Source: Xanthomarina gelatinilytica (GTDB lineage: Bacteria; Bacteroidota; Bacteroidia; Flavobacteriales; Flavobacteriaceae). Taken from it: a DNA stretch of 64,000 nt. The notes under the pieces were generated by a model. That model ran no database searches and had not been told where the DNA came from. It saw nothing but the letters and a program-made list of their open reading frames with translations. Shown here piece after piece: positions 4,648-39,199 of this stretch. Position numbers and translations under genes: made by a program. Each line of letters starts with the position of its first letter. The stretch's first letter is position 1. The stretch spans positions 1 through 64,000 of the forward strand of contig NZ_ANLA01000017.1 of the NCBI RefSeq assembly GCF_000348685.1. The letters are read 5' to 3'.

Positions 4648-5484
4648 ATGAAAAAACTTTCAATTTTATTACTAACCGGAGTATTACTATCAGCCTGTGT
4701 TTCTAAAAAGAAATACGTTGCCTTAGAACAGGAAAACGGGGAAATTAGAAGCGAGTTACAGAAAACCCAAGTCGCTAAAGAAGATTTAGAAGCCAAGTTT
4801 GATGAAATTCAGGCACGAATAGATACTTACAATTCCAAAATAAATTCCCTCACCGAAGAAAATGATGCCAAGATTGTAACCGTTGGCGACGACTTAGTGA
4901 TTTCCAATGATGTAAGAAAGCAAATGGAAGCCACATTGCAACATGTCGATCCAAACGAGTTGGCTCAAGCTCAAACACTTAAAGACTCCATGAACTTGGC
5001 TGTAGGTTACAATTTGCGTCAATCCATGGATACCTCCAACATGAATGAAGATGAGGATATTGCTATTGATATTAACGAAACTGTGGTAATGATTTCCATA
5101 TCAGATAAAATGTTGTTCAACTCTGGTAGCTATCGTATTAGCAGTAAAGCCGATGCCATTCTACAAAAAATAGCGGATGTTATCAATTCTGAAGAAAGTT
5201 TGGACGTGATGGTAGAAGGACATACAGATAACAAAACCATGGTAGCCAATGCATCGGTAAAAGACAATTGGGATTTAAGTGTGTTACGTGCCACTTCCGT
5301 AGTTAAGAAATTGCAAAAGGATTATGGTGTGGCCCCTGAAAAGCTGATTGCAGCCGGAAGAAGTTTTTACCAACCTCTAGTGGATAATGACACCAGTGAA
5401 AACCGAGCTAAAAACAGACGTACACGTATTATTATCCTACCAAACATCAATAAGTTTTTTGCCCTAATGGCCTCAAACGAATAA
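4648..5484 (+). CDS. OmpA family lipoprotein
   Basis: A 278-residue protein with a lipobox ending in LLSAC (Cys17), a charged coiled coil over about residues 22-65, and a C-terminal OmpA/MotB-like domain from about 145 to 265. The domain contains VEGHTDN and the SENRAKNRRTRI motif that binds the diaminopimelate stem of peptidoglycan. It should anchor the outer membrane to the cell wall. The gene is a single transcription unit with a strong terminator behind it. Confidence 0.9.
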   Translation: MKKLSILLLTGVLLSACVSKKKYVALEQENGEIRSELQKTQVAKEDLEAKFDEIQARIDTYNSKINSLTEENDAKIVTVGDDLVISNDVRKQMEATLQHVDPNELAQAQTLKDSMNLAVGYNLRQSMDTSNMNEDEDIAIDINETVVMISISDKMLFNSGSYRISSKADAILQKIADVINSEESLDVMVEGHTDNKTMVANASVKDNWDLSVLRATSVVKKLQKDYGVAPEKLIAAGRSFYQPLVDNDTSENRAKNRRTRIIILPNINKFFALMASNE

Positions 5485-5518
5485 AACAAGCCTCTTATAT
5501 TATATTAATTAGTCCAAA

Positions 5519-5552
5519 AAAAGACGTTTCCATTAGTAAGGAAACGTCTTTT
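5519..5552. terminator. bidirectional hairpin terminator
   Basis: A perfect 13-bp inverted repeat (AAAAGACGTTTCC with GGAAACGTCTTTT) with an 8-nt loop sits between the convergent OmpA lipoprotein and universal stress protein genes and can serve both. Confidence 0.85.
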
Positions 5553-5579
5553 GTTTTGTTACAGAACCTAGATCAAATA

Positions 5580-6431
5580 TTATAAACTCTCATGATTGAA
5601 AATAATTAGTGGCACATTCAAATGACTGCTAATGGACTTGCTATTGCTTCTATTGAACAATTTCTCAAAGAAACTTCGTTTCTTATTGATGATACAGAGC
5701 ATTCCAAGTTTTCTACTTTCACTGAATACACGTGTTCCCACTTCCACAGGCACATCGTTTATCAAGTAAAAATCCATTTTTATTGGTTTTAATGTCATTT
5801 CCAAAGCCAATTTGTTGGCCAATAAATCTGGGCTTAGGTTTGTGCTTTTATTGGTGATGTGCACAGCAGAGATGATAGCGTTGTGTGCCATGGCAATTTC
5901 TTTTAATAAGTCCAGATCGTCGCCATAATTTTCTATACTCAAATCGGTTGCAAAACCAATTTCAGACAGATCCATACTGCTAAGGGCATTTTGTGGCACA
6001 GCAATAATTGGGCAACTTTGTTTGTTGATTAAGTTGGCCGTGTTGCTACCAATGGTCATTTCCTTGATACCACTAGCGCCTTTGGTCCCTAAAATAACAA
6101 TATCGATTCCCAGTTTCTTTACAGTAGAGGTAACTGCATCCAAAAAGTAATCATGAACCAGTAGCGTTTCAAATGCATGATTGCTGTTTTTAGGAAGTTC
6201 TTGAATTTTTTGGAGCTCTTTTTCCAATTCCATTTTAGATTCATTATTTCTAGAATTTAAAATGGCTTCATTGGCTCTTCTGGATGAAACAGAAGATGGT
6301 GCGGATACCAATGGCTCAAGCGAGTGCATAATGTAAAAGGTACATGGCTCATTTTTAAATAAGTTTAAGGCATAACGTGTCGCTTCCCAGGAATTTGCAG
6401 AAAAGTCTGTTGGCAATAATATCTTTTTCAT
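5580..6431 (-). CDS. universal stress protein, tandem UspA domains
   Basis: A 283-residue cytosolic protein made of two UspA domains (about 1-145 and 150-283). Domain 1 starts with KKILLPTDFS and keeps the ATP-binding signature G-x2-G-x9-G-S/T in GTKGASGIKEMTIGSNT. Domain 2 is degenerate and lacks this signature, so probably only the first half binds nucleotide. Two-domain Usps are common in Flavobacteriia. No neighbour suggests a specific pathway. Confidence 0.9.
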   Translation of the reverse strand: MKKILLPTDFSANSWEATRYALNLFKNEPCTFYIMHSLEPLVSAPSSVSSRRANEAILNSRNNESKMELEKELQKIQELPKNSNHAFETLLVHDYFLDAVTSTVKKLGIDIVILGTKGASGIKEMTIGSNTANLINKQSCPIIAVPQNALSSMDLSEIGFATDLSIENYGDDLDLLKEIAMAHNAIISAVHITNKSTNLSPDLLANKLALEMTLKPIKMDFYLINDVPVEVGTRVFSESRKLGMLCIINKKRSFFEKLFNRSNSKSISSHLNVPLIIFNHESL

Positions 6432-11641: not shown

Positions 11642-11806
11642 GGTTAAGCTTTATGATTATAATAATAAGTTCTTAAGAAAACTTATTAATTCAAAAATCG
11701 TACCTTAAAAAATAATATCCAATTTTTTATCAAAACTTTAATGAAATAGTTTTTAGAACAATTGAGTCCAGATTCCAGCATTTCCCTCCCCTATTGTTAA
11801 AAAATG

Positions 11807-11857
11807 TTAAATATCTATTATGTTATGCATAGTACTGTAACAATTTTAAATATCTAT
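11807..11857. repeat. pair of 12-bp direct repeats upstream of the microprotein genes
   Basis: TTAAATATCTAT occurs at 11807-11818 and again at 11846-11857, 39 bp apart, 40-90 bp before the first 28-residue ORF. The spacing is close to four helical turns, which would suit two sites for one DNA-binding protein. Function is inferred. Confidence 0.5.
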
Positions 11858-11897
11858 CGTCTATCTAGTAACAATCAATCATTTAAAACAAAACATT

Positions 11898-11984
11898 ATG
11901 AGAACTTTAAACAGCAATCAAGTATCAGAAAGAACAACCACAAGTATAGGATATACCTGGAACAGCAAAAGACGATATAGATAA
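11898..11984 (+). CDS. 28-residue basic microprotein, copy 1
   Basis: A 28-codon ORF beginning MRTLN and ending GYTWNSKRRYR, net charge about +5. It has a close tandem copy starting 44 bp after its stop. The copies share 21 of 28 residues; in the last 11 codons all five nucleotide differences are synonymous, which is strong evidence that the peptide is translated and selected. There is no signal peptide or transmembrane segment. I do not recognise the family. Possible roles include a nucleic-acid- or ribosome-binding peptide, or a precursor peptide. Confidence 0.65.
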   Translation: MRTLNSNQVSERTTTSIGYTWNSKRRYR

Positions 11985-12028
11985 GCCTATAGACACGATC
12001 ATCAATCAAAAATAAAAATCAAGAAATC

Positions 12029-12115
12029 ATGAGAACATTAAACAACAATCAATTAACAGAAAGACAAAGCAGTAGTAAAGGTTACACCTGGAACAGTAAA
12101 AGAAGATACAGATAG
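12029..12115 (+). CDS. 28-residue basic microprotein, copy 2
   Basis: The paralogue of the preceding ORF, with the same length, the same MRTLN start and an identical GYTWNSKRRYR end, but a variable centre (residues 9-17). The few bases before the ATG are also similar in the two copies (AT-C/T-ATGAGAAC). Duplication is old enough for synonymous drift but the C-terminal block is fixed. It is followed by a small hairpin and a 43-residue ORF before the terminator at 12333. Confidence 0.65.
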   Translation: MRTLNNNQLTERQSSSKGYTWNSKRRYR

Positions 12116-12182: not shown

Positions 12183-12314
12183 ATGAAAGCAGTTATTAAA
12201 ATCTCCAGGGATTCTTACGGGAAAGTAAAACACCTTTCGGTTAATAAACTCATACAGAGGTTTAATAACTCAAATGAAGAACTTTGGACTGGCATTAAGC
12301 GTTTTGCGCATTGA
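12183..12314 (+). CDS. 43-residue small ORF, unknown
   Basis: An ATG-initiated ORF of 43 codons, starting MKAVIKISRDSYGK and containing a tryptophan (ELWTGIKRF). It lies in the same direction as the two 28-residue ORFs and ends 18 bp before a strong terminator. It has ordinary amino-acid composition (basic, amphipathic) but there is no second copy here to test selection. I do not recognise it. Confidence 0.45.
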   Translation: MKAVIKISRDSYGKVKHLSVNKLIQRFNNSNEELWTGIKRFAH

Positions 12315-12332: not shown

Positions 12333-12364
12333 AAAAAAACCAGCAATAACTTGCTGGTTTTTTT
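12333..12364. terminator. hairpin terminator after the tiny-gene cluster
   Basis: A 14-bp perfect stem (AAAAAAACCAGCAA with TTGCTGGTTTTTTT) with a 4-nt loop. It can end both the plus-strand tiny ORFs and the minus-strand 3D-domain gene, whose stop codon overlaps its right edge. Confidence 0.9.
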
Positions 12365-38359: not shown

Positions 38360-39199
38360 ATGAGGCAAAAAACATTGGCTATTATGGCAGCTGGATTGGG
38401 ATCCAGGTTTGGAGGTTTGAAACAAGTCCATGCTGTTGTAAACAACTATGCCATTTTGGACTTCTCCGTTTACGATGCGCTTCAGGCTGGATTCAATCAC
38501 ATAGTGTTTATTGTTAATGAAGACCTAATATCTGTTTTTAAAGCACGTTATTTAAATGTTTTTCCAGAGCATATTAAAGTGGATATAACCCTTCAGGACA
38601 CTTCAGGTTTACCAAAAAGAAAGAGACCTTGGGGAACAGGTCACGCCTTACTTTCTTTAAAAAAGCTTGTCCACAACAATTTTGCACTAATAAATGCAGA
38701 CGATTTTTATGGTAGAGATGCTTTTAAATTGATGCATGATGCGTTATACACAGACACAAACAAGCAGAACTACTTTATAGGCTATCCATTGAAAAATACC
38801 TTATCGGATTTTGGGGCAGTTTCTAGAGGTGTATGTATTTTAAACAAAAATCAGGATCTTAAGAATATTGTGGAACATACCAATATTAGCAAAGAAAATC
38901 TTTCAATGCCATTGGACACGATAGTTTCCATGAATTTTTGGGGATTTACACCAGAGGTATTCAACATTGCTGACTCCTTGTTTGCAACATTCCTCAGAAA
39001 ACACAAAAACTCCCAAACAGCTGAATTTTTTATTCCACAAATCGTTGATTTTATGATTAATGAATACGATAGCGTTTTTAAAATGCTTGAAACAAGCGCC
39101 AAATGGTTTGGTGTTACATACAAGGAAGATGAGGCTAAGGTAAAGGAACAACTGCAGGAGTTAATTTCCTTGGGAATATATCCTAAAACATTGTGGTAA
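38360..39199 (+). CDS. sugar-1-phosphate nucleotidyltransferase
   Basis: A 279-residue NTP-transferase. The nucleotide-binding motif MAAGLGSRFGGLKQ is at the N-terminus, followed by GTGHALLSLKK and INADDFYGRDAF with the metal-binding aspartates, then NFWGFTPEVF. It should join a nucleoside triphosphate with a sugar-1-phosphate. The kinase gene that starts 3 bp after its stop suggests the sugar phosphate comes from an anomeric kinase. Confidence 0.85.
   Translation: MRQKTLAIMAAGLGSRFGGLKQVHAVVNNYAILDFSVYDALQAGFNHIVFIVNEDLISVFKARYLNVFPEHIKVDITLQDTSGLPKRKRPWGTGHALLSLKKLVHNNFALINADDFYGRDAFKLMHDALYTDTNKQNYFIGYPLKNTLSDFGAVSRGVCILNKNQDLKNIVEHTNISKENLSMPLDTIVSMNFWGFTPEVFNIADSLFATFLRKHKNSQTAEFFIPQIVDFMINEYDSVFKMLETSAKWFGVTYKEDEAKVKEQLQELISLGIYPKTLW

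Follow-up and report, generated by a model that had tools for sequence, protein, structure and literature searches.

What do two adjacent ORFs of 28 codons, encoding similar basic peptides (peptide A, copies 1 and 2), do for Xanthomarina gelatinilytica? Both lie in a 64,000-nucleotide stretch of contig NZ_ANLA01000017.1, the whole of which is called the window here. An original prediction, made from the letters alone, had proposed selection on the peptide and a tail that might bind nucleic acid, ribosome or membrane, and had left a precursor-peptide role open. We analysed the relatives of these peptides, their codon substitutions, their promoters and their neighbours in order to decide between these and other roles.

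Results

Organisation of the locus

The two A ORFs (Table 1) translate as MRTLNSNQVSERTTTSIGYTWNSKRRYR for copy 1 and MRTLNNNQLTERQSSSKGYTWNSKRRYR for copy 2, and their coordinates and translations confirmed the predicted pair of adjacent ORFs of the same length with 21 of 28 residues in common. The copies differ at seven residues, 6, 9, 10, 13, 14, 15 and 17, all but the first of which fall within residues 9-17. The five base differences that had been counted in codons 18-28 were all synonymous (GGA/GGT, TAT/TAC, AGC/AGT, CGA/AGA and TAT/TAC). A whole-genome tblastn-type search with copy 2 matched positions 11898-11984 and 12029-12115 only. Absent from the original prediction were the cistron at 12183-12314, which we call B, the promoter and operator-like repeat at 11796-11863, the terminator at 12333-12364 and the arrays of one to six A copies found elsewhere.

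Table 1. Features of the A/B locus in the window
Feature	Position	Strand	Basis
Direct repeat GTTAA-N5-GTTAA (10-bp period), putative operator	11796-11810	+	Pattern search
Conserved block TTATGCATAGTACTGTAACA, overlapping the -35 element	11823-11842	+	Mismatch-tolerant genome search
ECF-sigma-like promoter: TGTAAC (11836-11841), N16, CGTCTA (11858-11863)	11836-11863	+	Homologous clusters, genome scan
Peptide A, copy 1 (28 aa)	11898-11984	+	ORF list, genome-wide tblastn-type search, family codon analysis
Peptide A, copy 2 (28 aa)	12029-12115	+	ORF list, genome-wide tblastn-type search, family codon analysis
Peptide B (43 aa), last cistron, tail LWTGIKRFAH	12183-12314	+	Genus conservation, dN/dS, alignment A2
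Terminator-like hairpin, 14-bp stem, 4-nt loop, T-rich 3' arm	12333-12364	+	MFE -17.1 kcal/mol, z-score -4.08

Distribution of the A family

Homologous ORFs had been expected in related genomes and were found there. A single-sequence search (E<=10, a level at which the weakest matches are chance-level) found A homologues in 22 of 60 genomes, and a search with profile A1, an alignment of 26 A peptides, found the family in 133 of 397 Flavobacteriaceae genomes (E<=0.01); both counts include the genome of the window. When genomes were drawn from the whole phylum, 4 of 395 matched at E<=0.001, all of them Flavobacteriaceae and one of them our own. In named genomes, 280 stretches were confirmed by a scan, and the best 80 were taken as loci; these were found by the pattern MRTL[ND][SN]NQ, so the start of A is conditioned in them. 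Among the best 80 of 280 the genera Bizionia, Formosa, Xanthomarina, Winogradskyella, Aquimarina, Ulvibacter, Altibacter, Psychroflexus, Hyunsoonleella and Aequorivita were represented, together with others. One genome of the same genus, 99% complete, had no match to A or B while five others in the genus have both, which implies that the operon can be lost; this absence and that from two thirds of the Flavobacteriaceae searched indicate that the A family is dispensable.

The claim that A belongs to no named family held, since no model of Pfam, NCBIfam or PHROGs matched it and profile searches of the PDB with A and with B gave no significant match and no relative, ribosomal proteins included. 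The search of viral contigs yielded 12 pattern matches, none of which was confirmed, and no A relative was found in plasmid or phage records; none of these three collections thus pointed to a phage- or plasmid-borne gene. Six peptide strings of the family were not found among open-licence papers, in which a prior description was otherwise sought by keyword. Judged from their sequences and recurrence, the two A ORFs belong to a genuine protein family, for which, as for its operon, none of the libraries searched has a name.

Selection on the peptide

Codon usage was analysed on 202 distinct 28-codon A genes (172 distinct peptides), chosen on residues 1-3 and on W21 plus N/D22. Mean entropy was 0.70, 0.66 and 1.06 bits at codon positions 1, 2 and 3, respectively. 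The dN/dS ratio of A was 0.26 overall, 0.17 for residues 2-8, 0.77 for residues 9-17 and 0.20 for residues 18-28 (NG86, ratio of means; 1500 pairs were sampled for each part, and after removal of those with no dS or with dS>=3 there remained 1241, 860, 1205 and 789 usable pairs). These results upheld the proposed selection on the peptide, the third codon position being the most variable in these distinct genes, and also the proposed variable centre, where the ratio was 0.77 as compared with about 0.17 and 0.20 at the ends. Codon-position-dependent conservation with dN/dS below 1, as in a microprotein family, was found for A (202 genes) and for B (15 pairs within the genus), and this pattern indicates that selection acts on the peptide encoded by the A ORFs.

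The same pattern bears on the idea that the locus makes a regulatory RNA in which the ORFs are incidental. The unit is short, it ends in a strong terminator-like hairpin, and a similar promoter precedes two apparently non-coding tandem units elsewhere in this genome, on contig C7. However, the locus is not mainly an RNA since the substitutions follow codons, with the overall ratio of A given above and a dN/dS of 0.14 for B in the genus, and no Rfam family matched at the gathering score in the six loci searched, the C7 units included. We consider such an RNA very improbable.

The invariance of W21 is partly circular in the 202-gene set because W21 was a selection criterion, but W21 and N22 were invariant also in the 26 sequences of A1. 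The arginines R25 and R26, neither of which was used to select the set, were present in 202 of 202 genes, N22 in 201 and K24 in 198, while Ser23 was encoded by both the AGN and the TCN codon families. The GYTWNSKRRYR end, which had been described as fixed, was conserved but not fixed: residue 27 was Y in 138, F in 62 and C in 2 of the 202 genes, and residue 28 was R in 178, K in 19 and H in 5. In a later set of 214 peptides (187 of exactly 28 aa; at least one likely false positive was kept), residue 28 was S or N in a few and some copies extended 1-5 residues beyond the motif. A basic tail with no hydrophobic segment was borne out by a mean GRAVY of -1.46 in the 214-peptide set and a mean net charge of about +6.

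Two further candidate signals were rejected. No A gene ends in TGA (0 of 202), but this apparent avoidance was discarded, TGA being rare in neighbouring genes too (17 of 417) and the copies not being independent. The spacer motif CATCAATCAA, enriched genome-wide (32 sites as against 3 in the reversed control), was discarded as a binding site for A, with 20 of the 30 sites examined lying inside ORFs of more than 100 aa.

Peptide B and other last cistrons

A conserved 43-aa B ORF follows the A copies in six of the eight genomes of the genus, our own included. In 95 of 103 clusters that bear the promoter described below, an ORF of at least 18 aa starts within 130 nt past the last A, and this next ORF is 42-46 aa long in 62 of the 95 arrays, while the lengths of control ORFs on the reverse strand were scattered. 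B diverges fast between genera (alignment A2). Its tail in the genus, LWTGIKR(F/Y)(A/S)H, resembles the A tail W-N-S-K-R-R-Y-R. The last cistron of 18 of the 95 arrays is instead an acidic-tailed peptide of 22-25 aa such as MKALSKIVNTSNSLDDDLENIRL (list read by eye, one member being loose).

The 23-aa acidic-tailed peptide of the MKALSKIVNTSNSLDDDLENIRL type is highly conserved and replaces the basic B of 43-45 aa in loci L094, L107, L116, L118, L123 and L124, among others.

The B peptide of the window matched no model of Pfam or NCBIfam, and its two matches in PHROGs were weak (E=0.023 to a family of unknown function, and E=0.27). AlphaFold predicted one low-confidence helix (mean pLDDT 70.4, pTM 0.29), which says little.

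Promoter and regulon

Upstream regions were compared in 120 A clusters for which 150 nt or more of upstream sequence was available; identical clusters entered the count once, those of related species separately. The promoter was present in 103 of them (<=2 mismatches), the direct repeat in 100 and both in 94, so that 94 of the 103 promoter-bearing clusters have a GTTAA repeat of N5 or N6. The repeat ends 24-26 nt before TGTAAC in all listed cases except four, and the first A start codon lies 28-44 nt past CGTCT in 96 of 103 clusters (our own count from the listing). With further loci added, 106 clusters could be scored for TGTAAC-N16-CGTCT: 105 have a spacer of 16, and 95 of the 106 are free of mismatches, while in a shuffled control 2 of 5200 regions matched the promoter at <=1 mismatch. 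The block TTATGCATAGTACTGTAACA has its sole site in this genome at the locus when up to 3 mismatches are allowed (the reversed control pattern has 2 sites), and a related block (<=4 substitutions) was found in 85 of the 103 promoter-bearing clusters.

The TGTAAC-N16-CGTC pattern gave six sites in this genome and none when reversed. All six precede genes, namely those of a DUF456 protein, an ECF sigma factor (Pfam domains Sigma70_r2 and Sigma70_r4_2; contig C14, near 61.7 kb), an ABC ATPase (a TTG start being assumed), an M61 peptidase and a DUF4870 protein, and the A/B operon. The gene behind the ECF sigma gene is probably that of its anti-sigma factor, a label given from position, Pfam having no match. 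A promoter motif of fixed spacing is thus common to the A/B operon and the ECF sigma operon, which suggests a single ECF regulon with its sigma gene among the members, and this sigma factor as the putative reader of the promoter. GTTAA-N5-GTTAA alone was not enriched (27 sites as against 25 for the reversed pattern) and was rejected as a regulon marker in this genome.

In other pattern scans, an ECF pattern with a spacer of 17-19 missed the promoter of the window, whose spacer is 16; the sigma-70 pattern gave 4 sites as against a mean of 4.0 in shuffles; and the terminator pattern missed the hairpin at 12333-12364, because the stem probably takes up the T-run.

The promoter resembles, by description of the motifs, the SM6 promoters of Flavobacterium psychrophilum, which also have a CGT box in the -10 region and an ECF sigma/anti-sigma pair. 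In the passages of PMC9723704 that deal with it, SM6 is ascribed to ECF sigma factors and its promoters are strongly induced under low nutrients such as freshwater; the genes described there behind SM6 promoters encode T9SS components and Band-7 proteins and, unlike the A/B operon, not tandem microproteins.

Similar control elements were seen on contig C7 of this genome. The two tandem, apparently non-coding units mentioned above, of about 120 nt each, lie on the minus strand at about 38400-38860 (L169, L189); both end in a terminator-like hairpin and have ATGGTTAGTGTTA in common. In the first, AGTAAC-N16-CGTCTA is immediately preceded by three GTTAA repeats; the second has GTTAA-N6-GTTAA and CGTCTA. 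Both may be small RNAs controlled in the same way as the peptide operon. At C7:108076-108136 (L190, L191), a second ECF-like sigma gene (judged by eye) faces a divergent gene and has TGTAAC-N16-(G/T)CATCTA-type sites upstream on both strands; it looks self-regulated, with a CATC rather than a CGTC -10 element.

Arrays and single copies

The number of A copies in the 103 promoter-bearing clusters was one in 30, two in 43, three in 17, four in 8, five in 4 and six in 1. When the best 80 of 280 loci were examined together with the window, the arrays were often at a conserved chromosomal site, with recurrent neighbours encoding a secreted protein of unknown function (29 of 81 loci), a pseudouridine synthase (27), a helicase (26), an M19 dipeptidase (19) and an ExbD/TolR protein (19). 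Besides the helicase, the pseudouridine synthase and the ExbD/TolR protein, the recurrent neighbours given to Pfam included an E1 dehydrogenase and a protein that is 3D-like at a score below cut-off, among others, but no typical peptide-modification system such as might accompany a precursor peptide. A precursor role for A is possible but gained no direct support from these neighbours, though the M19 dipeptidase recurs, a methyltransferase lies in 8 Aquimarina-type loci and some single copies precede ABC transporter genes.

In the Aquimarina-type loci L090, L091, L093, L103, L109, L113 and L152, near 5000-5700, the first A copy is of a different type while the later copies (MRT[IT]DSNR...) are nearly identical to one another, which suggests local amplification and two A subtypes within one array.

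The 17 clusters without the ECF-like promoter are all single-copy. In six of these, A precedes genes for a histidine kinase and an OmpR-type regulator (Pfam) by 94-104 nt, with a GTTAA repeat upstream in 6 of 6 as well as a TAGATTTG element. In three, A precedes an ABC ATPase gene by 33-131 nt, and in one of these (locus L200) Pfam found ABC_tran and, in the protein of 1087 aa encoded behind it, a Peptidase_M1 domain as well as an ABC-2 match that stayed below cut-off. One copy precedes an alpha/beta hydrolase gene, and another stands ahead of HlyD, ABC and MacB genes, separated from them by a 39-codon ORF. Five copies have no ORF of at least 80 aa within 420 nt behind them on the same strand and are followed by terminator-like hairpins (by eye). 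In the remaining cluster the upstream sequence is masked. Both kinds of context occur within four Winogradskyella records, and the kinase and ABC contexts go back to a small number of independent events, probably a single lineage for the kinase and a single context for the ABC genes.

These contexts would fit a cis-acting leader peptide, on whose basic C-terminus (KRRYR) the ribosome would stall or pause to control the genes behind. Arrest peptides are typically conserved at the C-terminus, as A is, and like TnaC or ErmDL, A is a short ORF whose conserved C-terminus has a tryptophan and basic residues and which sometimes lies just upstream of a regulator or transporter operon. A terminator-like hairpin lies between A and the kinase gene in the six loci, where double changes were found in 6 of 16 pairs (6 sequences), and the ABC genes follow A closely in three. 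However, the double changes came mostly from one diverged sequence, the hairpin is not in register in the alignment of those loci, and none was seen by eye ahead of the ABC genes. Unlike TnaC or ErmDL, A is found mostly in units ending in a tiny cistron (the array-type promoter stands before 103 of 120 clusters, and the majority of these 103 close with B), some copies extend past the motif, and the five lone copies have no larger ORF close behind to be controlled in cis. Given arrays that usually end in B and single genes that stand alone, A is probably not, in the main, a cis leader; we hold out little hope for this explanation.

The same contexts make a signalling partner and an exported signal the main alternatives. 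If A and B were exported peptides, they would leave by an ABC exporter and be sensed by a histidine kinase, by analogy with the phenol-soluble modulins of Staphylococcus, which have their own exporter and regulator and are likewise tandem signal-less peptides of two size classes linked to an ABC transporter and a two-component system. The peptides have no hydrophobic signal-like stretch on average, two size classes occur in one unit, and A lies ahead of the kinase-regulator pair in six loci, of the ABC ATPase in three (with the M1 protein, Pfam on L200) and of the HlyD/ABC/MacB genes in one. We gave this reading, and the wider view set out in the Discussion, slightly more weight on account of the M19 dipeptidase by many arrays (19 of 81 loci) and the M1 domain behind one single copy. 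Against it, the array neighbours given to Pfam (10 representatives plus 1) included no exporter and no receptor kinase, the contexts stem from few events, and the peptides are polar and cationic; on GRAVY and charge A is no hydrophobic peptide of the modulin kind. Export seems rather unlikely.

As feedback modulators of envelope signalling, A and B would adjust the very stress response by which they are induced, through binding to a histidine kinase, to an anti-sigma factor or to the surface of the inner membrane. This would agree with the promoter motif shared with the ECF sigma operon and the DUF456 and DUF4870 genes, and with the position of A just before the kinase-regulator pair downstream of a GTTAA repeat. 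However, A and B have no transmembrane segment, which most known kinase-binding small proteins have, and this genome has no close orthologue of the kinase-paired regulator at E<=1e-60, a strict threshold. Such a role is unlikely, if conceivable. At the same strict threshold the Winogradskyella regulator found beside A matched 2 of 31 genomes, both of other families of the order, and it was rejected as the regulator here. RprX/RprY was also considered and dropped, a keyword search of PMC3646045 giving no passage on it.

Discussion

What can be read directly from the sequences is purifying selection on the peptides, tandem arrays that usually end in a distinct cistron, and a fixed promoter-like motif with a GTTAA repeat. 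Stress-induced, trans-acting, cytosolic basic microproteins from one transcription unit, with a tail that would preferably bind RNA or the ribosome, are the explanation we tentatively favour, and the leader-peptide, signal-peptide and RNA readings fit less well. Trans action is supported by the five single copies that have no larger ORF close behind and by the terminator-like hairpins after them.

In this favoured explanation, the promoter, two A genes, B and the terminator would form one transcription unit. The promoter would be read by an ECF sigma factor, probably that of the sigma operon in this genome which carries the same motif, and an OmpR-type response regulator would bind the GTTAA direct repeats; both steps are proposed from the motifs. 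The peptides would then be made in quantity, by tandem dosage, under envelope or nutrient stress. The A tail W-N-x-K-R-R-(Y/F)-R would grip an anionic partner, most likely RNA or the ribosome, in the manner of small stress-induced ribosome-associated proteins, which is the weakest step, and the similar W-x3-K-R-(Y/F) tail of the genus B may do likewise. The variable middle of A would be a tolerated linker or a specificity segment. Polar and cationic as they are, the peptides most likely have their place of action in the cytosol and an anionic molecule as partner. The support for a ribosome or RNA partner consists of charge and composition, with no PDB relative, and the single copies before the kinase-regulator pair and the ABC genes fit signalling or export at least as well as a ribosomal role.

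Small basic proteins under a stress sigma factor are a general kind already known. Like SRA (bS22) and other small basic ribosome-associated proteins of Escherichia coli, A and B are very small, basic, predicted to be cytosolic and stress-linked, and B is about the size of SRA; unlike SRA, A occurs in tandem arrays and has only 28 aa with an aromatic/arginine tail, and the binding of A or B to the ribosome is putative. We know of no sequence relationship between SRA and A or B. The phenol-soluble modulins, being amphipathic and hydrophobic, differ from the polar and strongly charged A in composition, and no exporter was found among the recurrent array neighbours given to Pfam. What would surprise a specialist is the array design and the single copies ahead of signalling and transport genes.

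A wider view, which we find improbable when taken as a whole, is that of a new dosage-encoded microprotein system of the Flavobacteriaceae, in which interchangeable 28-residue units would be multiplied in tandem under an ECF-plus-regulator promoter and would, at other loci, form the first cistron ahead of kinase-regulator and ABC-transporter genes, providing a common intracellular or exported peptide signal that would link envelope stress, two-component signalling and peptide export.

One third of the Flavobacteriaceae genomes searched (133 of 397) carry peptides that are nameless in the family libraries searched. Their promoter can serve to mark one predicted ECF stress regulon among bacteria that are called understudied in PMC9723704, and with one to six copies and peptides of about 22-45 aa, deletion, dosage and synthetic-peptide tests should be easy. 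The phylum has an unusual translation initiation, according to PMC6847099. If A and B do bind the ribosome, such a phylum would have one more stress factor; if they act in signalling, they would link three regulatory layers.
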